This document shows positions 33,764 through 58,667 of a DNA stretch of 64,000 nt, piece by piece. Made by a program: the position numbers and the translations under genes. This stretch comes from Polytrichum commune (taxonomy: Eukaryota; Streptophyta; Polytrichopsida; Polytrichales; Polytrichaceae). How positions within the stretch are numbered: position 1 is the stretch's first letter; the number at the start of each line of letters is the position of its first letter. The notes under the pieces are model-generated. The model did no database searches. It was not told the DNA's origin and saw only the letters and a list, made by a program, of their open reading frames with translations. Location of the stretch: the NCBI GenBank assembly GCA_950295325.1, contig OX485807.1, forward strand, positions 17,141,001-17,205,000. The letters run 5' to 3'.

Positions 33764-33963
33764 ATTTCCAGATTGCAGTTGTTGGGGAGAGGGCCGCGCG
33801 AACGCGAGCCCCCCCCCCGCCACGAATTATGAAAACTACCGATCATGCAGAGGAATTTGAAGAATATAACCTCAAATTCATGTAGAAAGAACTGAAAAAC
33901 GTGAACATGTCACCGATTGGATTTGGAAATGGATTCTTGCCCGACACGCTTCATTTCCAGATT

Positions 33964-34290
33964 TCTTTCCAGATTGCAGTTGTTGGGGAGAGGGCCGCGC
34001 GAACGCGAGCCCCCGCTGCCACAAATTATGACGTGTATACCTCCCGTAGGAAGATACTGGAGCAACTCGGCCCGAGGTGCAATGGGGCAAGCTCCTCCAG
34101 GCCATCCACCTTCTGGATCATGGATGCGTCCCGCCCAGGTAAGTGGGTTCCGTTGTCTTCATCGGGGGGCTTTATTCTCACTCTCGTCGTCCATCGCATC
34201 CCCGGCCGTATGGGTTTTCTCAAATCTTTCTCCATCTTAGCAAGCGAGCATGAGATCAACCGTGTGGAAGAAATTTTGCCCGAGCCTTGA
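33964..34290 (+). pseudogene. Array block A, copy 0: H2B helix 1-2 remnant
   Basis: The GC-rich 5' part (about 33,990-34,138) has no assigned homology. After 34,150 the sequence aligns with block D and with H2B helix 1 and the start of helix 2; the segment 'SEHEINRVEEIL' at about 34,242-34,277 corresponds to H2B SFVNDIFEKL. The frame then ends at TGA. The helix 1 portion is more diverged here than in other A copies. Confidence 0.45.
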
Positions 34291-34493
34291 AACTACAACG
34301 TCGCTTGATCGCAATCCTTGGCATTCAACCAGCATTCGAATGGTCCTCGTGCTTGCTTATGAACAGAAATAGTGATCGTTGTAGACATCGTTAACGTACT
34401 GTGGTAAAGTGTTGTTGGGGTATTACAAATGCATTCTGGAGAACACAGATCGCAACCCCAACCTCGATTCTCTCGAAGTTGGGTTTGGGTGTA

Positions 34494-34640
34494 TTTCCAC
34501 GTCAGACTGTAGGGTTGTAAATCCGGCATGTGGGATGCCGGTTGGGTCCAAGTGTCATCCCCCATGGAATAGTATATCTTTACATTGCTGCAGTCTTTGG
34601 GTTTATTCAAAGACATACCATCTATCTCTCCTGCCTCGGC
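34494..34640. repeat. Array block B, copy 0
   Basis: Non-assigned block with an internal 7-bp-stem hairpin (CCGGCAT...ATGCCGG). Other copies are 37,371-37,450, 38,750-38,910 and 42,010-42,170. The frame containing CRVVNPACGMPVGSKCHPPW is conserved between copies simply because the DNA is; no family is recognised. Confidence 0.7.
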
Positions 34641-35574
34641 TCTTACAGTGTTCACCTCTGCGATACGCAGCAATGTGTATGGGATAATGTTTCTTATGGG
34701 GATCGGAGTTTGGGCCCAGCTCAAGTGAATAAGTTATGTGACCCATCGAAATTACCTAAAAGTTGCAATAATATCTTCGATAGACCACACCCCTTTAATC
34801 TATGTAGCACAGTTTTAAAATGAATTCTGTAGATAGACGAAAGTGGTTCTCAACTTGGTCAACATGTCTAAGAAGCACAGAATCTGGGCTGTTTGCATAT
34901 CATTCTGGTTACTCTCAAAGAGATCATGACCTATGAATCACATAAGAATTGCATAAATGCTCCCAACCTGTAAGGTAGGGGAGAACCATGGCAGGGAACC
35001 ACCAAAGATTTCTCACAATTTAATGGCATTCATATTTACTCCCGAATCTGGCCAAGTGTATATTTTATAGTTGAGATTGCTGAGCATCGTCATAAGTTGG
35101 GCATGGCATTACAGACAGAAAGGAAACTATCCTTCGAGTGGATTGATATTTTATTCATTTCTCAAGCAACAAGTGAGTGCTTTGAAAAACATGCAGATGG
35201 AAGTGTTCAGCAGTGGAGGTGCCTGCTTAGTGTAGCAGCTCATTTTCGTGGAGTTTAAAAACGTGAGTGAAGGAAGGTACTGTAACTAGCCTCTTATTAC
35301 ATTCATTTGCTTATGTAGTGTCTTTGGCCACCTCCTGGTAGTTTCATACAAGTTATGCCGGTTCCTTAGGAACCAGCTGGTCAATATCATTCCTCAAACC
35401 TTCGCCACCACTGCAACATTCCACCAGGGACATGGATTAATGCAACTCCTTGAGTGTCTTCATCACAAAATCACGTACGGAAATCCAAAGGGTTTAACAA
35501 CCTCGTACAAAAAAACCAGAAAGACAAACCATGGTAACTCCTGATCGATTCCAACATGAGCCAAGAACCAAGCT

Positions 35575-36541
35575 CACCGTCTTAGTAAGGTTGAACGTTT
35601 GGTGATCCTAAGAGAGATCGATCGTCAGATGGTATGTAGACATCCTCAAAAAGAATAACCACAGTCTTCATTCTGTACATGAGTTGTGTTGTTGAGCTCA
35701 TCACACATTTATCATCATCAGCTAAGCCCCGCCCCAATTCTTGTACACATTTCATACTGGAATCATGCATCTTTGGATTACTTCATTGGATCAGTGCCTT
35801 TATTTGCGGGGTTTTATACCTACAACCGTCGGTCCTCGGATCCCAACGCTACGGGGTTTCTCAAACATGAGCATCATGAAAGCACCATGAATGCGTTTTA
35901 AAGATGGAGGATGCATATCAGGAATTGAGCTTTCTTAGAACCATTTACCAACTCACTGCTACAATCTAGCTCTCCAATGCTTTCAAGCTTCACTCAAAGT
36001 ATTGAGGTTGTTGAGATTGCTGAGCATCGCCTCCAGGTGGACATGGCATGACAGATACAAAGAAAACTAAAATTTTCACACCTCCGGCTGGATTGACATT
36101 CTCTTTCGTGATCCATAGCGAATCTGGGAGACAAGATTAGATTCAAAACAACTATCACGGCTTCCGGAAGGCTTTGTTCGAGTCGGCTTGCACCGTGCTT
36201 TTCTTATGCCCCTTAGGTCACTTCTCTTCGAGCATTCACTCAACTGGTTCTAACTGGTACAGGAAATGCACTGTTCTCTAGATATTTTCGAGGTTGCGCA
36301 CTACAATAAGAAGCCCAGGGTTGATCACTCCTTGCGAGAACCAGACTGCAGTGCCTCTGATTTGATTATGCCCGTGGAGTTGCCCAAGTATGTCATATTC
36401 GAAGGCGCCAAGGCTGTGACCAAACTAACAAGCGCTGACGTTATTCTTTCGTCTGCTCTGTACGAGATTCTGTTGTTTCAGAACGCCACCTTCGATATTC
36501 GGAAACCACGTCTACTTTGGAATACACTGCCCAAACTGTGA
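35575..36541 (+). pseudogene. H2B-derived pseudogene, array blocks D-C-E, unit 0
   Basis: Core histone H2B normally pairs with H2A in the nucleosome. Here, in order: GFYTYNRRSSDPNATG (about 35,800-35,850) corresponds to H2B helix 1 and loop (IYIFKVLKQVHPD-TG). In the same frame, STMNAF (about 35,883-35,900) corresponds to SIMNSF at the start of helix 2, followed by a stop. After roughly 370 bp of unrelated sequence, an ATG frame at 36,266-36,541 resumes with LDIFEVAHYNKKP (end of helix 2) and LPKYVIFEGAKAVTKLTSA (the C-terminal helix, H2B LAKHAVSEGTKAVTKFTSS). This frame runs 34 codons past the normal H2B end. The split, stop and tail indicate a broken gene. H2B identity is strong for the last segment, moderate for the rest. 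Confidence 0.7.
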
Positions 36542-36852
36542 TGGCTTTCCTCATTCCTTGAAAACTCATAGAGGGCGACTTTTACGTAATAGTTAACGAC
36601 TTCTAGCAAGTAGCATGAGACATACGCATATTCCCGGGAGCAGCTCTATCCAATGAACACGTTTCTTGTGGTAGACGAAAACATGCGTGTTAACGAACCG
36701 TGCACATGTGCGAGAGAAAACAATTCCCCCAATATGAAAAATGTGCAAGTTAACATCAGAAGCACTTCAATGGAGCACACAGCGAAGTCGTACTATTGCC
36801 AAATCAATACACACATGTCCTCCGATTTCGATAATAAACATTTCCAGATTGA

Positions 36853-37220
36853 AATTGTTTGTATGGGGCCCGCGCGAACGCGAGGCCCCACTGCCACAAA
36901 TTATGACGTGTATTCCTCCCGTAGGAAGATACTAGAGTCACCCAGCCCGAAGTGCAATGAGACAGACTCCTCCAGGCCATCCACCTTCTGGATTGTGGAT
37001 ACACCCCGCCCAGGTAAGTGAGGTCCATGTCTTCATCGGAGGAATTTATTGTCACTTTCTTCGTCCATCCCATCCCGACGATATGGGTTTTCTCTAATGT
37101 TTTTCAAACTTAGGAAGCGACCATGACATCAACCGTGTGGAAGAAATTTTGCAAGGGCCTCGACACTTCAGCCTCAGTCGATCGCAATGGTCGGCATTCA
37201 ACCAACTTTCGCAGACTCTT
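36853..37220 (+). pseudogene. Array block A, copy 1: H2B helix 1-2 remnant
   Basis: After the GC-rich segment, GIYCHFLRPSHPDDMGF (about 37,038-37,088) matches the H2B pattern IY-x(4)-L-x(3)-HPD-x-G with small indels. Then HDINRVEEILQ (about 37,121-37,153) matches FINDIFEKLAQ. Stops and frame changes between the two parts rule out an intact histone. Confidence 0.5.
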
Positions 37221-37689
37221 GATGTTTCAATATGAAGCGTTTTTTTATGCTCCTACACATCATTATCGATCTTTGTTAGGAATGCGGTAGAGTTTTGCAA
37301 AAGCTTGCTGACGAGCACGCATGACAATTATCCTACAGGGATCCCTAGAGGATTTGTAGTTTAATAGAATTTCCACGTCAGACTGTAGGGTTGCGAATCC
37401 GGCTGGGTCCAAGTGTCATCCCCCGTGGAATAGTATATCTTTACTTTGCTAACTGCTATTACAGTTTTGTTTAGAACATGGAGCGGCGTCAGAGTTGGAC
37501 AATGGCAATACGGAGAGAAAGGAAATTCAAAGAATTTCAAACCTCCGGGCGGATTGCGATCTTATTTCATTTCTCAATCGTCAAGTTCGAGCTTTTGATG
37601 CGCAAACGACGTTGCAATGATGCTTGACGTAGCAAATAATTGAATTCCATGTCAATTATAACAAAACCTAATCCATGTACGGATTTCAT

Positions 37690-38010
37690 CCAAATTGAAG
37701 TTGTATGGGAGAGGGCCGCGCGAACGCGAGCCCCCGCTGCCACAAATTATGACGTGTATGCCTCCCGTGGGAAGATACTAGAGTCACCCGGCCCGAAGTG
37801 CAATGGGGCAGACTCCTCCAGGCTATCCACCTTCCAGATCATGGATACACCCCGCCCAGGTAAGTAAATTCCTTATCTTCATCGGAGGGATTTATTCTCA
37901 CTTTCTTCGTCCATATCATCCGGACAGTATGGGGTTTCTCTAGTCTTTCTCAATCTTAGCAAGTGAGCATGAGATCAACTGTGTGGAAGAAACTTTGCAA
38001 GAGCCTCGAA
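37690..38010 (+). pseudogene. Array block A, copy 2
   Basis: Same layout as copy 1, with the GC-rich part nearly identical to the 41,247 and 44,268 copies. The helix 1 region is degraded; a short 'EHEINCVEETLQEP' remnant remains near 37,969-38,010. Confidence 0.45.
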
Positions 38011-38217
38011 ATTACTTATAGTTTGGGCCCAGCTAAAGTGAATAAGTTATGTTAATTGAACCTTTTGAGTAACTAATGCAACTCCTTGAGTGCCTTCATC
38101 ACCAAAATCACGTACGCATATCCAAGTGGTTTAACAACCTCGTACTAAACAAACCAAACCAGAAAGACAAACCATGGTAAGCTCCTGATCGATTCCAACA
38201 TGAGCCAAGAACCAAGC

Positions 38218-38644
38218 TCACCGTCTTAGTAAGGTTGAATGCTTGGTGATCCTAAGAGAGATCGATCGCCAGATGGTATGTGGACAACCTCAAAAAGAAT
38301 AACCACATTTTTCATTCTGTACATGAGTTGTGTTGTTGAGCTCATCACACATTTATCATCATCCGCTAAGCCCCGCCCCAATTCTTGTACACATTTCATA
38401 CTGGAATCATGCATCTTCGGATTACCTCATTGCATCAGTGTCTTTATCTGCGGGATTTTATACTTACATCCTTCGGTCCTCGGATCCCAACGCTACGGGG
38501 TTTCTCAAATCTTTCTCAAACTGCTTAAGCGAGTACGAAGTAAATCGTGTGGAAGACTCTCTGCGAGAGCCTAGACTTTACAAATTCATTCGATCGCAAT
38601 CCTTCGCAATCCTTCGCATTCATTCTACAATCAAAGACTCCTGA
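38218..38644 (+). pseudogene. Array block D, unit 1: H2B helix 1-2 remnant in one frame
   Basis: An open frame (38,330-38,644, no ATG at its start) contains AGFYTYILRSSDPNATGF. This aligns with H2B IYIFKVLKQVHPD-TGI including L, P, T and G positions. In frame, YEVNRVEDSLREP follows, aligning with FVNDIFEKLAQEA. It then diverges with no YNKKP region before the stop. This is the longest single-frame H2B-like stretch in the array. Confidence 0.55.
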
Positions 38645-39019
38645 TGATTACGTGAAAGTAAATTTTGATGCCACCTATCATTCTCAAATCTGTAAGAAAG
38701 CCGCGAAAGTTTCGAGAACAAATGACAACCAAGCCATTAGGTTTTAACACATTTCCACGTCAGACTGTAGGGTTGTGAATCCGGCATGTGGGATGCCGGT
38801 TGGGTCCAAGTGTCATCCCCCGTGGAATAGTATATCTTTATTTTGCTGCAGTCTTTGGGTTTATTCAAAGACATAATATTCACCTCTCCTGCCATGGCTC
38901 TTACAGTGCTCACAAAGGCAAGTAACCATCAATGTGTATGGGATATTCAATCGCAAAGATTGCAATCATGCTCCCAACTGTAAGCTACGGAAGAACCACC
39001 AACCTTTTCCAGAGGGCTG

Positions 39020-39760
39020 GACAATGGCATTACAGCTAGAAATGGAAGGAAGGCAGTTTCAGACCTTTGGATCAATTGAGATTTTATTTGATCTCTCAAC
39101 CAACAAGTCAGTGCTTTCGAAATGCAGATCATTCTTCGCCCAAATTCATTGGCAAGGTTAAACTGCTCAGGGGCACATTTTCATCTTCTCAACTGTGCAT
39201 TGTGGGAAGTAGCAAGTGATTACTATTTTCTCATTAAATATGTTCGCGTGGCAAGATACCTGTGTCTGTGTGGCCACCTCCTGGTTTCTGCATACAAAAT
39301 ACCTACTTGTTCTATACATTTTTAATTTATAAACAGGTCTATTCGTAAACCTTCACCACCAAAGGGAAGAGGTTATCATAACATCGCACACGGTTAGGGT
39401 TTAACAGCCTCGTAAACTTGATGGCCAATGGAGTAAAATCGGATGCATAACCTGGAAAATGAACCTGTAGTTGCCAACAGTATTGAAAGGACCGATCGTC
39501 ACACTTTCCAACACTTGGTCGTACTTCTCATCCTCCGCGGAACCCATACACATGAGCTTATATTCCAGATCCGCAGTGCCAGATTAACCGTGAGAATGCA
39601 TTCGAGTTATGTTGCCACTCACTTGCATGCAATTGCGCAACTTCGAATTCGAAAACTCTTTATGGTCATCTTGACGAAATGCTAGGACAAGAAGTATTAT
39701 TGAAACTAAAGCTTAAGTGAGGATGAGAAGGAGTATTGAGCGTACTTCAGCGGGGCGAGG
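39020..39760. repeat. Array blocks G and F, unit 1
   Basis: G (about 39,020-39,260, 'ttagattgagattttatttgatctctcaaccaa'-type) and F (39,336-39,760, 'attcgtaaaccttcacca') are duplicated at 42,568-42,800 and 42,837-43,270. No recognised protein; F contains an open plus-strand frame at 39,443-39,685 that is broken in the second copy. Confidence 0.7.
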
Positions 39761-39761
39761 C

Positions 39762-39925
39762 CACAAGGAGCATTTGGGAAACTCCCGCATGGGAAAAGGG
39801 ATGGTTTTCCCACTATGAACATTCCCACTTTGACATAATTCCCTCCTTTTGAAGGGAGTTCTTACGTTTTTCCCGCACACAAGAGGGAATTGTGCCAAGA
39901 GGGAATGTTGTAAATCACCCTTGTG
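39762..39925. mobile_element. 164-bp MITE with 3-bp duplication and empty-site paralogue
   Basis: Ends CACAAGGAGCATTTGGGAA and TAAATCACCCTTGTG (inverted repeats), flanked by GGC at 39,759-39,761 and 39,926-39,928. The paralogous unit at 43,261-43,280 reads straight through with one GGC (43,271-43,273), which is the empty site. A 3-bp duplication suggests a CACTA-like or Harbinger-like source; the termini (CACAAGG) fit the former better. Non-coding, and inserted after the unit duplication, or lost from the other copy. Confidence 0.8.
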
Positions 39926-40187
39926 GGCATTCGTAGGAAATATTAAATTACAAAGGATTGAGGAACATCGACGGGTAATCGAACACCATTACATTCATCA
40001 TATTCATTACACTCATTGTCTCCTGTGTGTACTCTGTGTATGGAGCTAATTACAGTAATTGTAAGTTCACAACTTCACACCAAAGAAATCCTTCCGTCTG
40101 AATCTCCTCGCGTGAAACAGACGTTTCCAAATTGAGAGTCTAATATGTACCCCGCTGCCTGATATTTATCTACTTTGTCCTCCCATT

Positions 40188-40950
40188 GTGCAATCGAAAA
40201 GCAGAGGCAGCGTAATGAGTCAAAGAAGTGCCATAGAACTAGTCAGGGCCGATGCATTGGTGTTTGCGAAGTTTCGCAACACGCGGCTGCTAAGCGAGCT
40301 GGTCATGGCCAGCAGTAGGGCATGGATAAAGCACAGCTCGAAATCTGGCCAAGTGTTAACAATGAGCATCATGAACGCACCATGAATGCGGTTTACAGAT
40401 AGAGGATGCATATTAGGAATTGAACTTTCTTTGGAACCACTTACCAACTCCCTGCTACAATCTAGCTCTCCAATGCCTTCAATCTTCACTCATAGTATTG
40501 AGGTTGTTGAGATTGCTGAGCATCGCCTCCAGTTGGACATGACATTACAGATACAAAGGGAACTAAAACATTCAGACCTCCGGGTGGATTGACATTTTAT
40601 GTTGTGATGCATTGCGAAATCCGGGACACAAGAATGGAGTCAAAATAACTATCACGGCTTCCCGAAGGCTTTTGTTAGGGTCGCCTTGCTCTGTGCTTCC
40701 TTTTGTTGCTCCCTATGTCACTGAATTAGTTCGATGTGGTACAGGCTGTGCACTATTCTCCGGATATCATCGAAGTTGCGCTCTGCGACAAGAATCCCAG
40801 GATTGATCACTTCTGGCAAGATCCAGACTGTAGTGCGTCTAATTTGATTTGCTCGTGGAGTTGGCCAAGTACGTTATTTCGGAAGGCTCCAAGCCTGTGA
40901 CCAATTTAATCAGCACTGCTGAAACTGCGATGGTTTTCTTCATTGCGTGA
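40188..40950 (+). pseudogene. H2B-derived pseudogene, array blocks C-E, unit 1
   Basis: ATG frame 40,188-40,385 ends in KHSSKSGQVLTMSIMNAP, matching H2B HPDTGISSKAMSIMNSF. It stops where an 11-nt direct repeat (ATGAACGCACC / ATGAATGCG) breaks the frame. Downstream, DKNPRIDHFWQDPDCSASN (about 40,786-40,845) and then, one frame over, ELAKYVISEGSKPVTNL (about 40,858-40,910) match the H2B C-terminal region. The frame change and stop codons make it non-functional as H2B. Confidence 0.6.
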
Positions 40951-41246
40951 AACTGATGATAGAAGACAAATTCTACGTCTTAGTTAACGAGTTCTGACAA
41001 GTAGCATGAGACATATGCATATTCTCGGATCAGCTGTATCCAATGAACGCGCCTCCTGTGGTAGACAAAAGCATGCTTGTTAACGAACCGTGCACATGTG
41101 TGCGAGAATAAAACATTTCCCCGAATCTGAAAGATGTGCAAGTTGACATCATTTGCGTTTCACTGGGGCACACAGCGACTTCGTCCTATTGACAATTTAC
41201 GAGACGCAGGAGTTGCAGTTCTGAAATTACGCATTCCCATATTGAA

Positions 41247-41570
41247 GTTGTTTGGATGGGGGCCGCGCGAACGCGAGCCCCCGCTGCCACAAATTATGAC
41301 GTGTATGCCTCCCGTAGGAAGATACTAGAGTCACCCGGCCCGAAGTGCAATGGGGCAGGCTCCTCTAGGCCATCCACCTTCCAGATCATGGATACACCCC
41401 GCCCAGGTAAGTGAGGTTCCTGTCTTCATCGGAGGTATTTATTCGCACTTTCTTCGTCCATCCCATCCCGACGGTATGGGTTTTCTCTAGTCTTTCTCAA
41501 TCTTAGCAAGCGACCATGAGATAAACCGTGTGGAAGAAATTTCGCAAGAGCCTCGAAAGTACTTGTAGTT
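41247..41570 (+). pseudogene. Array block A, copy 3: H2B helix 1-2 remnant
   Basis: Best preserved helix 1 in block A: GGIYSHFLRPSHPDGMGF at about 41,431-41,487, matching H2B IYIFKVLKQVHPDTGI with a one-residue gap. A TAG follows at once. 'INRVEEISQEPR' persists downstream. The rest of the unit, including most of block D, is deleted after about 41,850. Confidence 0.5.
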
Positions 41571-43339
41571 TGGGCCCAGCTAAAGAAAATAAGTTATGTT
41601 ATTTGAAACTTTTGAGTAATCAATGCAACTTCTTGAGTGCCTTCATCACCAAAATCACGTACGGATCTCCAAAGGGTTTAACAACCTACCAAACAAACCA
41701 AACCAGAAAGACAAAGCTTAATAAGCTCCTCATCGATTCAACATTAGCCAAGATCCAAGCTCACCGTCTTAGTACGGTTGAATGTTTGGTGATCCTAAGA
41801 GAGATCGATCACCAGATGGTATGGAGACAACCTCAAAAAGAATAACCAATTTGATCGCAATGCTTGGCATTCATTCTACAATCAAAGACTACTCATGATT
41901 ACTTCAAAGAAAATTTTGATCCCACCTATCTATTTCAAATCTGTACGAAGCATGGTGGACAAAGATGCAGAGAGAACAGATGACAACCAATCCATCAGGT
42001 TTGAATGTGTGTCCACGTCAGACTGTAGGGTTGTGAATCCGGCATGTGGGATGCCGGTTGGGTCCAAGTGTCATCCCCCGTGGAATAGTATATTTTTACT
42101 TTGCTGCAGTCTTTGGGTTTATTCAAAGACATAACACTCACCTCTCCTTCCATGGCTCTTACAGGTCTCACCAAGGCAAGTATGCATCTATGTTTATGGG
42201 ATTTTCAGTTTCAAAGATTGCAAATCATGTAAGCTAGCGAAGAACCATCAACCTTTTCGTACAAAAAAATGGCATTCGTATCCTCTCCTCCGAAATGTGG
42301 TCGAGTGTTAACAATGAGCATCATGAACGCATCATAAATGCAGTTTTAAGATTGAGGATGCAAGTAGGGATTTAACTTGCTTCGAAACCAGTTACTATCT
42401 CACTGCCACAACTATTCTCTCCAATGGCAGTGCAGGCTTTACGCAGTTTGGCGGCAGTTTGGTCTTACGACGCGTATTAAAATAATTGACAATTACGTTC
42501 AGTTGTACATCGCCTTAATGTTTAGAACCTGGTTCGAAGTGGCGTCAGGGTTAGAGAGGGCTAGACAATGGCATTCCAGATAGAAATGGAAATGAGGCAC
42601 TTTCAGACCTTTGGTTAGATTGAGATTTTATTTGATCTCTCAACCAACAAGTCAGTGCTTTTGATATGCAGATCATTTTTCGTCCAAGTTCATTGGCAAG
42701 GCTAAACTGCTCAGAGGCACGTTTTCATCTTCTGAACAGTGAATTGTGGGAAGTAGGAAAGGATTACTATTCTCTCATTATATATGTTTGCGTGGCAAGA
42801 TGCCTATTTGTTCTATACATTTCCAAAATATAACCAGGTCTATTCGTAAACCTTCACCATCAAAGGGAAGAGGTTATCATAACATCGCACACGGATAATC
42901 AAAGGGTTTGACAGCCTCGTAAACATAAAATTGATGGCCAATGGAGTAGAATCGGACGTATAACCTGGAAAATGAACCTGTAGTTGCCAGCAGTATTGAA
43001 GGACCCATCATCACACTTTCCAACACTTGGTCGTACTTCTCAACGTCAGCGGAACCCATATACATGAGCTTCTGTTCCAGATCTGCAGTGCCAGACTAAC
43101 CGTGAGAATGCATTCGAGTTATGTTGCCACTCACTTGCATGCAATTGCGCAATTTCGAATTCGAAATCTGTTTTTGGCCATCTGGACGAAATGTTAGGAC
43201 AAGAAGTATTATTGCAACTAAAGCGTAAGTGAGGATGTGAAGGAATATTGAGCATCCTTCAGCGGGGCGAGGCATTCGTCGGAAATATTAATTTGCAAAG
43301 GATTGAAGAACATCGACGGGATATCATGGCTGGTCATGG

Positions 43340-43960
43340 CCAGCAGTAGGGCATGGATAAAGCACAGCTCGAAATCTGGCCGCGTGTTTAACAATGAGCA
43401 TCATGAACGCATCATGAATGCGGTTTAAAGATGGAGGATGCATATCAGGAATTGAACTTTCTTTGGAACCACTTACCAACTCCCTGCTACAATCTAGCTC
43501 TCCAATGCCTTCAACCATCACTCAAAGTATTGAGGTTGTTGAGATTGCTGAGCATCGCCTCCAGTTGGACATAGCATTACAGACACAAAGGAAACTAAAA
43601 CATTCAGACCTCCGGGTGGATTGGCATTTTATTTTGTGATGCATTGAGAAATCTGGGACACAAGAATGGAGTCAAAACAACTATCACGGCTTCCCGAAGG
43701 CTTTGTTAGAGTTGCCTTGCTCCGTGCTTCCTTTTGTTGCCCCCTATGTCACTGAAATGGTTCGAAGTGGTACAGGTTATGCACTATTCTCCGAATATCA
43801 TCCAAGTTGCGCTCTACGACAAGAATCCCAGGATTGATCAATTCTGGCACGATCCAGACTGTAGTGCGTCTAATTTGATTTGCTCGTGGAGTTGGCCAAG
43901 CACGTTATTTCGGAAGGCTCCAAGCCTGTGACCAATTTAATCAGCACTGCTGAAACTGCG
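43340..43960 (+). pseudogene. H2B-derived pseudogene, array blocks C-E, unit 2
   Basis: Near-identical to unit 1 (40,303-40,930): the same MSIMNA motif at about 43,400, the same 11-nt repeat lesion, the same shifted frame before the ELAKYVISEG-like segment, and the same deletion after SKPVTNL relative to unit 0. The ~320 bp preceding MSIMNA in unit 1 (39,975-40,298) are absent here. Confidence 0.6.
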
Positions 43961-44267
43961 ATGGTTTTCTTCATTGCCTGAAACTGATGATAGAAGACAA
44001 ATTCTACGTCATAGTTAACGAGTTCTGACAAGTAGGATGAGACATATGCATATTCTCGGATCAGCTGTATCCAATGAACGCGCCTCCTATGGTAGACAAA
44101 AGCATGCTTGTTAACGAACCGTGCACGTGTGTGCGAGAATAAAACATTTCCCCCAATCTGAAAGAAGTGCAAGTTGACATTATTTGCGCTTCACTGGGGC
44201 ACACAGCGACTTCGTACAATTGACAATTTACGGGACACAGGGTTTGCAGTTCTGAAATTACGCATTT

Positions 44268-44450
44268 CCAGATTGAAGTTGTTTGTGTGGGGGCCGCGCG
44301 AACGCGAGCCCCCGCTGCCACAAATTATGACGTGTATGCCTCCCGTAGGAAGATACTAGAGTCACCCGGCCCGAAGTGCAATGGGGCAGGCTCCTCTAGG
44401 CCATCCACCTTCCAGATCATGGATACACCCCGCCCAGGTAAGTGAGTTCG
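44268..44450. repeat. Array block A, copy 4, truncated: right edge of the array
   Basis: Matches the GC-rich half of block A through GCCCAGGTAAGTGAG and then switches at about 44,448 to unrelated sequence, so the array ends here. Confidence 0.8.
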
Positions 44451-44922: not shown

Positions 44923-45172
44923 GGAGAGACAGGGAATTATCGTATACGAGCGTACCTCTCACCCATCCATCCAACATAAAAACTCAACCCCCTCTAGCTT
45001 TGTTGCCAATTCATCTCAAATGACTTCTAATAGACTAATTTTGGGTTTTAGAAGCTAATTCCGGTGTCAAAACAAGTAATAAAAAATAGTCTCTAGGCTT
45101 CATACTATTTAAGAGTTTATATGTTGGATGAATGAGAGATACATTCGTATACGATAATTCTCGAGTCTCTCC
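44923..45172. mobile_element. Long-TIR MITE (Mutator-like), copy ii (250 bp)
   Basis: GGAGAGACAGGGAATTATCG at the left mirrors CGATAATTCTCGAGTCTCTCC at the right. The arms contain CGTATACGAGCG and CCATCCAACATA and are about 52 bp. Flanked by an imperfect 9-bp duplication GTTGAGAAG / ATTGAGAGG. Same family as copies i and iii. Confidence 0.65.
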
Positions 45173-47404: not shown

Positions 47405-47824
47405 GGAGAGAGAAGGAATCGTCACATACGAGTGCACTCTCATTCATCCAACATACTTGTCCTAAGTTGAATCTAGTAACATTATTCAGCAGTGTGTGTT
47501 TGTTCATGTGGACCCCGAGGATATAACCATGGGATGCCGCAGTTAGTGCACATTCAGGCTGAAAATTGCACTAGTTATCACATCCATGGTTATATACTCG
47601 GGGCTCACGTGAACGAACGCACGTTGCTGAATAATGTTATGCCCACATGGTAGTATTTTTCAGTTGAACTGACACTGGAAGTGACTTTAAAGATCCCGAA
47701 GTAGTCTACTCCAAGTCACCTGAGATGAATCGGCAACAAATCTACAAGGGATCGAGTTTTCATGTTGGATGGATGAGATGTACGCTCGTATGTGATATTT
47801 CCCTCTCCCTCTCCCTCTCTCTCT
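47405..47824. mobile_element. Long-TIR MITE (Mutator-like), copy iii, carrying a nested foldback (420 bp)
   Basis: Left arm GGAGAGAGAAGGAATCGTCA...CATCCAACATA and right arm 'catgttggatggatgaga...tatgtgatatttccctctccc'. Imperfect 9-bp flanking duplication CAATAGGAT / CAATAAGAC (47,396-47,404; 47,825-47,833). The extra length against copies i and ii is mostly the nested element at 47,477-47,639. Confidence 0.65.
47477..47639. mobile_element. Nested foldback element (163 bp)
   Basis: Inverted repeat with arms of about 60 bp: TAACATTATTCAGCA at one end and TGCTGAATAATGTTA at the other, both continuing through 'ccccgaggatataaccatgg' and its complement. Would form a long hairpin if transcribed. 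The duplication is at most TA. Confidence 0.75.
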
Positions 47825-54652: not shown

Positions 54653-55576
54653 GGGGTCACATGGACCATGGCTCCGAGTAACGGGGAACCGTCGGATGGG
54701 GCCCGGAGAGGGACCACCGTCCAGATTTCGTTTCATCGTCTGTCTCTCAGCCCCCCCCCCCGGGGCTGCCTTCGTTGCGCTGGCCCGCCCGGCTATGGCA
54801 GCCTCGCTTCCCACCCGAGCTCGCATCGCATCGCATCGCATCGCAGTGCAGCGCAGGGGGGCCATTGCGAATCGCGATCCACTCGCTCTTTAGCACTGCT
54901 ATCGCTCCACTCGCTGTGGCGACTCTGTTGGAATTTGGGTAGCTCGATTTCGACTCCCGAGAGCGGACTCTGCGGAGTGCTTTGAGGCCCTTAGGGTTTG
55001 GCCGTTGGGGTTTGCACCTGTGCGTCCTTCGAGGCTCGGATTGCTTGGAATCATCGCGGGTGGGGTGGTGGTGGTGATTTTTTTTATGTGTGTGGATGCG
55101 CCTTGGATGTGGGACAGATGTGCCGGTGCATGTGGCGGGCGGGGGGATGGTGGATCGGGGATGTGGGCATGTGGATGCGGATGTGGTAGTCATGGCGCTG
55201 CCAAGGGTTTTGTAGGCTTTGGCGAAGGTCATGACGATGGTTGAGAGTTGGAGGTGTACGGAGTTGGCAGGTGGCTGTTGACGACGATGATGTACAGACT
55301 GGAGCTTTGACATGGCGGTATTCCCTCTTGTTTGATGCAGTGAGTTTTGGTGCTACTTTCCTTCTTCTCATCGTGACATCCGCCGGGTCGACGAGAGAGA
55401 GAGCGAGAGACCCGATGAAGAGGAGAATAATTGTGACATATTTGAAGGTGGAGTGAGAGGTGAGTTGGAATTGGGAGGAGAAGCTGATGTTGTGGAATGA
55501 TGTTTCGGATGAAGGATAATATTATTGCTTAGGCTCTAGAAAGAGGAAAGGGGGAGGGGGAGGTTTGGATTCAGGC
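54653..55576 (+). promoter_or_regulatory. GC-rich upstream region and 5' leader of the PP2A B' gene
   Basis: Abrupt rise in GC after about 54,650. Contains a (TCGCA)5 repeat at 54,821-54,845, a telo-box-like AGGGTTT at about 54,992, GA repeats at 55,394-55,410 and a G-rich segment just before the start codon. Transcription start and any leader intron cannot be fixed; long open frames on both strands here reflect composition. Confidence 0.45.
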
Positions 55577-58500
55577 ATGGTGTTTAAACTGAGGCGCGTG
55601 ATTACGCGCCAGAAAGGTCCATCGAAGTCCGAGAGCAGCAATGAAACAAATCCAACGAATGGCGGGGGAGCAGCTGGTGGGTCTGTGGCTACATTGGCGG
55701 CCCCGGCAGCTTCAAAACCTAATGTCAATCCTCTCGGAACGAGAAATCCGGCTGTTCCTATAGTTCGACAAGCGGGACCTGTTGCACTTTCATCCTCAGT
55801 CATCGCCCAGAGTAATCAAAGACCGAAAGACAGCAAGCTGCCCAATGGGAGCTTTGAGGCCTTGCCATCTTTTAGGGATGTGCCGAGTGCTGATAGGCAA
55901 AATTTATTCATTAGGAAGCTCAACTTGTGCTGCTATACATTCGACTTCACAGACCAGAGTAAGAATGTGAAGGAGAAGGAAATCAAGAGGCAGACGTTGC
56001 TGGAGTTGGTTGATTATGTGACATCAGGTACAGGGAAATTCACGGAGTCTGTGTTTGAGGATATCACAAAGATGCTGGTGATAAATCTTTTCCGCACTCT
56101 GCCCCCTTCATCCCACGAAAATACTGGGTCTGAAAATTTTGACGCTGAGGAGGAGGAGCCCACAATGGAGCCTGCGTGGCCGCATTTGCAAATTGTATAT
56201 GAGTTTCTCCTACGGTACGTTGTGTCATCCGAGACAGATGCCAAAATTGCCAAAAGATATATTGATCATTCGTTTGTGCTTAAATTACTGGACCTTTTTG
56301 ATTCCGAGGATCCACGGGAGAGGGAATACCTCAAGACAATATTACATAGAATTTATGGGAAGTTTATGGTTCACCGTCCATTTATTCGAAAGGCCGTCAA
56401 CAACATCTTTTACCGCTTCATTTTCGAGACAGAAAAGCATAATGGGGTCGCTGAACTCCTGGAAATTTTGGGAAGCATCATCAATGGCTTTGCTTTGCCT
56501 CTCAAAGAGGAACATAAGATGTTCCTTGTGCGAGCCTTGATACCTCTGCACAAACCCAAATGTGTCTCTATGTATCACCAACAGCTTTCGTACTGTATAA
56601 TCCAATTTGTTGAGAAGGATTTCAAGCTGGCGGACACTGTTATTAGGGGCCTCATCAAGTATTGGCCCGTGACAAATAGTCAAAAGGAGGTTTTGTTTCT
56701 GGGGGAGCTTGAGGAAGTCTTGGAGGCCACGCAGGCAGCAGAATTCCAACGGTGCATGGTCCCTCTCTTCCGACAAATCAGTCGTTGTCTAAACAGCTCA
56801 CACTTTCAGGTAGGTATTCAGATCTCCATGTTATGTCATTGTTTGTTATCTTGTGAGTGTTCTCCTAGTATTCTTTGGCATTCAATCACTTCATGAATGA
56901 TCACATTATAAATTGTCGAACTTTTGGGTGAACTGATTACTCATGGTCGGGGTTGACCAGAGAAGTCTCCCAGAGGGGCTTTGATTTGCACCGATTCTCA
57001 GTCACCTTTCTTACTATTTTCAAGCCACTTGTTGGACTACGTGGTGTGTGAGGAAGAAGTAATACATATCTGCCAGATTTGAATATTGGGTTGTAGTTGA
57101 TTGTTAGTTGGGAATGTGGCCTAAAGAGTTGTTCAGAGAGATTATATACTTTGGTTTGATTTAATCTCAAAATAAATCTCCTCAAAAGTCTCACATTGAT
57201 GAAGATATGACTCTGTTGTATGTACTTGAACATGCTTCACAGTGCCAGGACACTGAATTTTATCATTTTCATCAATTAATCTGATTTTCAAAATTTCCCA
57301 AAATAGAGAATATACTGGATCACTCTCCACACATTAGTCTTACCAAACCATGCTGATTCCATGAAAACTAAGATACCATCTTGAATCTCAACTAAAAAGC
57401 TAGGGTGATTCATAGCATGGTTTTTGCCAGTTTTGGTTCCTAGCCATAGTTGTAAAGATAGCAAAGTGAGATATATTTTGCCATGCCAATCTCCACACAA
57501 CTTATCTGTGCAACCTTTTTGTAGAAAGAGGATGCCAACTTTTGTGTGTCCTTGTATGATGACATAGAGTCATTACTAATCATTAAAAACTAGAGCTATC
57601 TGTGCGTGAGTTGCAGCATTGCTAGAAAATGATCTCACTGGCAGCATTTCTGGACAGCAGGCCTGTCATGTTATTGCAGAACCATTTTGGAGGATTTTAG
57701 AACCAATAAAGTAGGATTAGGTCTCTAATTCCGAGGCATGTTACATTTCTTGTGTACCATCTTAAGAAACATTTTCAAGGAAAATGTTCCTAATCCTACC
57801 AATAAGGTAGGATTACGAACTTTTTCATCAAGACAACGGTCTTTACATCAATTTTTGTATACCTCCAGCATCATGAACATCAGGATATTCGTTTGATCAA
57901 CTTCCAATGTTCCTTTGAGTAGCATGTTTATGAAATGGGCAATGTGAAATAGCATAGGTGCAATTTTCTGTATGGCACTCTTGTATTTAGCTGTTGTTAG
58001 TTGTGACCAATGTAGCTATCAGTTCAGGAGCATCTCTCAGAGAGCTCAATATAATATGAATTGTCATGGCTATGGAACAGAAAGCAGTTTCTTGTTTAGC
58101 ATGTGTTTGGTGTTTTGTTTAAGAAATAAGATTGGCTTTCGTAAGTACACATGAACAACTCTCCTATCAGTCCTCATATCAAGTGCTATTGTGTTCAGTT
58201 ATCACCATGGTCACAATAATAAGCATTTTGTCTTGCTGCAGGTGGCGGAGCGTGCTCTCTTCTTGTGGAACAATGACCACATTGTGAGCTTGGTTGCCCA
58301 GAATCGGCATGTTGTGCTCCCCCTGATTTTCTCAGCTTTAGAGAGAAACACACGAAGTCATTGGAATCAGGCTGTTCATGGATTAACTTTGAATGTGCGT
58401 AAAATGTTTCTAGAAATGGATCAGGATCTTTTCCAGGAATGCCAGCGGAAGTTCCAAGATGATGAAGCAAAAGCAAAAAGCCTTGATGAGAAGCGAGAGG

Positions 58501-58667
58501 AGACATGGAAGCGATTGGAAGTTGCTGCAGCAACTCGGACCATCAAGTATGGTAGTGCTGTGTCAGACAACATATTGGGAAACCAGTCTGGGTCTATTTA
58601 TGATCTGATGGGTGGAGAGAGGTCTTTTGATCTGGTGGGTGGAGAGAGGGCTTTAGTGGGGAGCTAG
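55577..58667 (+). CDS. Protein phosphatase 2A B56/B' regulatory subunit (552 aa, two coding exons)
   Basis: Substrate-targeting and localising subunit of the PP2A holoenzyme. Exons 55,577-56,809 (411 codons) and 58,242-58,667 (141 codons plus stop) join in phase 0 at TTTCAG/GTAGGT and TTGCTGCAG/GTGGCG, across the family motif SSHFQ-VAERAL. Residues 1-95 are a variable, probably disordered Ser/Ala/Pro-rich N-terminus. The B56 HEAT-like domain covers about 96-505 with diagnostic blocks: plant-type acidic loop before [14 protein letters not shown] (200-213), [18 protein letters not shown] (233-250), LHRIYGKF (256-263), [20 protein letters not shown] (275-294), [16 protein letters not shown] (299-314), [10 protein letters not shown] (450-459). 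The 550-aa length fits plant members. The C-terminus ends in a doubled DL(M/V)GGER motif (532-549). The ATG at 55,577 is the first in frame; upstream codons open only from TTG. Confidence 0.96.
56810..58241 (+). other. Intron of the PP2A B' gene (1,432 bp)
   Basis: GT...AG intron with a T-rich 3' end (TTTTGTCTTGCTGCAG). The interior is A+T-rich with no coding or transposon signature. Confidence 0.9.

Follow-up and report, generated by a model that had tools for sequence, protein, structure and literature searches.

What is it that repeats in a tandem array which, read on one strand, resembles the scattered pieces of a histone gene? The question is raised by a 64,000-nucleotide stretch of the Polytrichum commune genome (positions 17141001-17205000 of contig OX485807.1, C5; genome of 408 Mb, of which ~406 Mb lie in seven large contigs), hereafter the window, in which an initial annotation placed a tandem array at 33.7-44.5 kb and took it to be built from decayed histone H2B. 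The array itself is real, as direct repeats of several families were found at ~33.7-44.5 kb, whereas histone sequence is not what repeats. With a probability of roughly 0.88, we read the array as a tandem cluster of small nuclear RNA (snRNA) genes, made of U1 genes and genes for a second RNA of 121 nt, to which we will refer as D3, with the H2B pieces as dead fragments carried along. The 3.0-3.6 kb units first proposed hold in part: several repeat families recur at such distances (3031, 3032, 3512 and 3547 bp), and the units must be called irregular because spacings of 846, 2644, 2875, 4258 and 4496 bp are also present. All U1 and D3 genes of the array lie on the minus strand, mostly with a TCCCATA-like upstream element at about -65 to -69.

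The blocks initially left unassigned, in a reading that followed the plus strand, are U1 snRNA genes on the minus strand. Five copies, at 33988-34146 (108.4 bits), 36863-37021 (117.9 bits), 37709-37867 (120.3 bits), 41256-41414 (119.9 bits) and 44287-44445 (120 bits), exceed the gathering score of 69.5 of the Rfam U1 family RF00003, and a decayed sixth copy at 33787-33968 (minus strand) stays under it (26.7 bits, E 0.0015). Likeness to known U1 snRNA extends to a full-length model match, the stem-loops, the Sm-site string and a 5' end complementary to 5' splice sites. The 5' end ACUUACCUG and an Sm site are present in 5/5 window copies, as are the exact strings ACTTACCTG and CATAATTTGTGG, the latter being the Sm-site string; read on the plus strand, the block ends in CAGGTAAGT, which is complementary to the end by which U1 pairs with 5' splice sites. 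Genome-wide, the best-candidate list holds at least 42 U1 copies, and together with window copy 33988 these gave 43 extracted sequences, all with ACTTACCTG and ATTGCAC and 37 with the exact CATAATTTGTGG. Upstream, at -65 to -67, TCCCATA is exact in 15/43 and within one mismatch in 39/43. The window copies would be transcribed and would serve splicing through the U1 small nuclear ribonucleoprotein.

The second repeated gene is less familiar. D3 is a conserved 121-nt block on the minus strand, with three full copies in the window (34496-34616, 38754-38874 and 42012-42132, with TCCCATA at -68, -69 and -69, respectively, and each delimited by alignment and pairing, the second also by its predicted fold) and one truncated copy lacking the 5' hairpin (37369-37450, minus strand, from DNA matches). 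Throughout the genome, 22 DNA matches and 21 pattern matches were obtained (one with the reversed pattern as control), and 9/22 have no listed U1 gene within 10 kb. Nineteen copies were aligned, leaving aside the truncated window copy 37369, L061 (5' half only) and the copy cut by the end of L011. Core and flanks were compared in nine hand-chosen copies of these 19 (one from the window, L060 and seven away from U1 arrays), without gaps and for those pairs that have sufficient flank. Identity is 85% in the core and 24-33% in flanking segments, with higher values next to the core, of 44% over the 20 nt preceding it and 41% over the 5 nt that follow. TCCCATA stands at -68/-69, exactly in 13/19 copies and with at most one mismatch in 17/19, while random window positions carry it anywhere between -90 and -50 in 0.4% (exact) or 6.9% (at most one mismatch) of cases; the array copies share upstream DNA and are not independent in this count. 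Away from U1 arrays, where eight of the aligned copies lie, the motif is exact in five, has one mismatch in two and is missing in one (L047), and two of the five exact copies (L041) sit in a single inverted duplication of 435 bp. D3 thus has the TCCCATA-like element of a plant-type snRNA promoter at a fixed distance, as in the U1 genes; a TATA-like element was assessed by eye only.

D3 is predicted to fold into a 5' hairpin, a linker and a UCCACG/CGUGGA stem around GGGAUGA, CUGA and an inner hairpin (z -2.84; 2/200 shuffles fold equally well). Three of its pairs are changed on both sides among the copies, and 12 further pair types occur, against 3-5 in slid controls. The layouts of the U8 and U3 small nucleolar RNAs (snoRNAs), box C/D RNAs of processing, served as yardstick: like them, D3 appears to combine an independent promoter, a 5' domain and a 3' stem with the box-C-like GGGAUGA and a box D, CUGA, although GGGAUGA is one mismatch from RUGAUGA in most copies. 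D3 could not be assigned to a known RNA. Rfam returned no D3 match in the window at E<=3 and only three sub-threshold matches in six D3 loci (E 1.1-3.6), none of them a credible family; in the same six loci the U8 family had no match at E<=10. Unlike U3, of which at least 39 ordinary copies are listed elsewhere in this genome, D3 has no Rfam family, and unlike U8, described as vertebrate-only in one article (PMC8993069), it occurs in a plant. TtnuCD32 of Tetrahymena, compared by description only, differs as well, being a mature RNA of 98 nt described as U14-like (PMC6315972).

Attempts to give D3 a target were not successful. Its 5' end shows a 12-nt complementarity (one G-U pair) to internal transcribed spacer 2, ~90 nt before the apparent start of 25S rRNA, which does not go beyond shuffles (2/15 shuffled RNAs as high or higher) and competes with the hairpin of D3 itself; pairing with rRNA was rejected, nothing in it exceeding shuffles. 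A U7-like role in histone processing was likewise rejected, as the longest duplexes with the 90 nt past 11 histone stem-loops reach 8-11 nt at differing places, in a comparison made without shuffle control. Most likely, D3 would be another small RNA driven by an snRNA promoter, and perhaps a box C/D processing RNA. The further proposal of an undescribed, multi-copy plant small nuclear or nucleolar RNA with snRNA-type promoter and U8-like layout, possibly acting in pre-rRNA processing, is tentative, and we hold it to be somewhat doubtful. A short dispersed repeat, similar to a short interspersed nuclear element, that carries an snRNA-type promoter by chance would explain why 21-22 dispersed matches exist and why some are truncated. 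This seems unlikely to us, as conservation falls at both ends of the paired structure, diverged copies have three base pairs altered in both partners, the flanks differ while the motif keeps its place at -68/-69, as it does before U1 genes, and no A-tail follows the 3' ends when these are inspected by eye.

The histone component, on the other hand, was correctly noticed and can now be delimited. Decayed H2B fragments do occur in several units: aligned as DNA to the H2B gene L014 of the same genome, three plus-strand relics score 162 (36266-36520), 115 (40749-40953) and 110 (43807-43948), where the shuffle maxima are 49, 50 and 50 and 0/300 shuffles reach any of them. The frame at 36,266-36,541, fixed beforehand as a test of H2B ancestry, is matched by phmmer against PDB at E 1.1e-12 (a chain with two H2B stretches; next match 1.9e-5), and among 3,389 stop-to-stop frames of the window a local H2B profile puts this one at 6.2e-8, 43874-43978 at 0.002 and 40843-40947 at 0.02; hmmscan of the same frame against Pfam yields no family at E<=1. 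The second frame for which an H2B match had been expected, at 38,330-38,644, has none in Pfam (only DUF4478, E 0.071) or in PDB (one unrelated match, E 0.45). Relics 36266 and 40749 begin at the MNSFIND codons (homologous to MNSFINDIFE) and relic 43807 slightly later. All three hold the 3' part of exon 2; the first extends past the C-terminus into part of the 3' untranslated region and has insertions that shift its frame as well as a gap in helix 2, the other two being decayed further. Likeness to H2B, in DNA and peptide, is to the second half of exon 2.

Two further pieces initially assigned to H2B did not stand. Block A, proposed as helix 1, scores 25 and 23 against shuffle means of 24.5 and 22.5, with 140/300 and 132/300 shuffles as high; the similarity is at chance level, and the ATGFLKSFSN end of the block belongs to repeat family D4, made up of DNA that flanks U1 on the 5' side (63% to the reference copy). 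The MSIMNA piece (block C) is more equivocal: 14/15 nt are identical to H2B and two copies are beaten by only 1/300 of their own shuffles, but a third is matched by 46/300 and that of unit 1 (block A/C) by 140/300. As a displaced H2B piece it is not convincing and was set aside, because scores like its own (25-33) are common across the window (398/12,786 windows of 70 nt score at least 30, partly the relics themselves) and because the relic already holds the overlapping MNSFINDIFE codons.

The DNA search lists five relic loci, on three contigs (the window, L007, L009, L010 and L011), and in none is there a complete open histone-fold frame. In each of the five relics that were compared, ITSREIQ is out of frame because of inserted bases. 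Helix 2 has lost length in the window relic, L007, L009 and L010; L011, the best preserved elsewhere, retains it together with the stop at its original position and has an internal stop. Substitutions at codon positions 1, 2 and 3 number 66, 66 and 69 (summed over the ten non-independent pairs of five relics, with the two most broken window relics omitted), a count without signal of purifying selection, on which a conserved protein frame was rejected. Since they are frameshifted, truncated and without codon-position bias, the relics are pseudogenes, in agreement with the pseudogene amplification that was among the options initially offered. The five H2B genes of this genome differ from them: exon 2 is open to the stop and exon 1, traced back to its ATG in L012, L013, L014 and L016, ends at KVLKQV, whereas the relics are fragments without exon 1.

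The same data bear on the divergent H2B-like protein family that had also been offered. An intron-containing family with exons A, C, D and E would account for the H2B similarity at 36.3 kb, for stop-free frames of 95 amino acids at four loci and for a TACAG directly before the relic that resembles an acceptor site. We give it next to no credence: block A scores no better than shuffles, block C fails to convince, the frame is broken or shortened as described, with an internal stop in L011, the three codon positions are substituted equally and the other two window relics are more broken still. The four 95-amino-acid frames are best taken for copies, related to each other, of a single dead sequence, given the equal codon-position substitution and the out-of-frame ITSREIQ segment. 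A mobile element that captured an H2B fragment with U1 DNA and spread both would fit copies at five loci on three contigs and the two D3 copies within the 435-bp inverted duplication of L041. This is improbable, if less so than the protein family, as the block is repeated together with U1 promoters and many listed U1 loci have no H2B match; transposon capture of H2B is not needed as an explanation, no search aimed at transposon signatures having been made.

How, then, did H2B come to travel with the snRNA cluster? None of the five listed relic loci is farther than ~3 kb from a U1 gene: the distance is 0.3-0.4 kb for the window, L010 and L011, 2.1 kb for L007 and 3.0 kb for L009. In three units of the array the relic sits 303-343 bp past the 3' end of the U1 gene, facing it. 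Two of the five H2B genes have a U1 gene downstream, L014 at 2.7 kb and L012 at 3.8 kb; the L012 cluster contains another H2B gene, L013, ~7 kb further along, and these three loci are on the same contig as the array, 1.27-1.36 Mb away. Near L015 and L016 there is no U1 gene among the listed copies. The U1 gene at 44287, with its upstream DNA, is ~84% identical over 347-363 bp (blastn) to those of L012 and L014, and a loose motif search for its promoter type picks 7/43 U1 genes. Because the five listed relics are within 3 kb of U1 and U1 lies downstream of two of the five H2B genes, H2B most likely hitchhiked with U1, and a duplicated H2B-U1 neighbourhood would be the simplest origin. A neighbourhood with H2B near U1 would have been duplicated, the H2B copy in the duplicated block would have decayed, and the block would have spread by segmental and tandem duplication with its small-RNA genes retained, the second of which, D3, would be an RNA of the snRNA/snoRNA class. 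The H2B pieces most likely do nothing and are passengers.

Several observations weigh against this reading of the array. The Rfam-consensus loop I string GATCANGAAG occurs in 0/43 U1 copies, so that loop I differs from the consensus GAUCAaGAAG of known U1 in every copy extracted; the test string GAUCANGAAG, which we take to be the U1-70K site, is also found in 0/43, a genome-wide trait that does not set the array apart. For D3, the excess of pair changes over column shuffles is modest (22-40/500 shuffles as high). As to the link with H2B, the nearest U1 gene found in L007 and L009 is 2-3 kb from the relic, the 44287-type promoter search also picks the U1 genes L034 and L035, loci where no H2B was found, and H2B and U1 are co-oriented at L012 and L014 but point towards one another in the units with relics, which requires a rearrangement to be assumed. 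Finally, the genome-wide lists are best-candidate lists, and three known U1 copies (33988 and two in L010 and L011) are absent from the U1 list. As a separate observation, loop I has at least three variable positions across the 43 copies, with 18 different 10-mers, none of them the Rfam consensus.

Besides the array, the histone genes of this plant deserve mention. A 6-bp stem, GGTGTT...AACACC, with a loop of 4 or 5 nt and mostly followed by ACC, lies 3' of the stop in 11/11 histone genes examined (the five H2B genes, L012-L016, and six of the 14 top histone matches, L048-L053), alike to the histone mRNA 3' stem-loop. Four of the six further genes read as H3, the frame printed for L049 and L050 not being the H3 frame. 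The L009 relic retains a pairable stem-loop at ~6100 (minus strand; GGTGTT TCAG AACGCC ACC). A genome-wide search with Rfam Histone3 (RF00032) gave no match, with only 75/91,826 candidates scored, too few to be informative, and the SLBP RNA-binding domain PF15247 is present at C7:8456455-8456868 (L063; E 7.2e-13 and 2.7e-9). Histone mRNAs of land plants are generally described as polyadenylated, and for this reason the stem-loops and SLBP merit a look of their own. Elsewhere in the window, an inverted repeat directly outside the array (44964-45109 and 47630-47775; 146-nt arms, 73% complementary, 2.5 kb apart) is possibly a mobile element, and a gene for a PP2A B56 regulatory subunit lies, in pieces, at 55565-58667 on the plus strand.

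Fragments of H2B pseudogenes are ordinary as such. The locus corrects a misreading, in that a cluster of splicing-RNA genes, read on the other strand, resembled a histone-derived array, and it provides an example of an snRNA cluster that took a histone pseudogene along as it multiplied. Neither a U1-H2B array nor a D3 RNA is described in the literature consulted, which consists mostly of titles and the openings of abstracts. The most interesting part of the locus is D3, for which a U8/U3-like layout in a plant is predicted: the array brings to light a conserved gene family of snRNA type which here went unrecognised by Rfam 15 and, if D3 is expressed, it would be a new candidate for a plant processing RNA.

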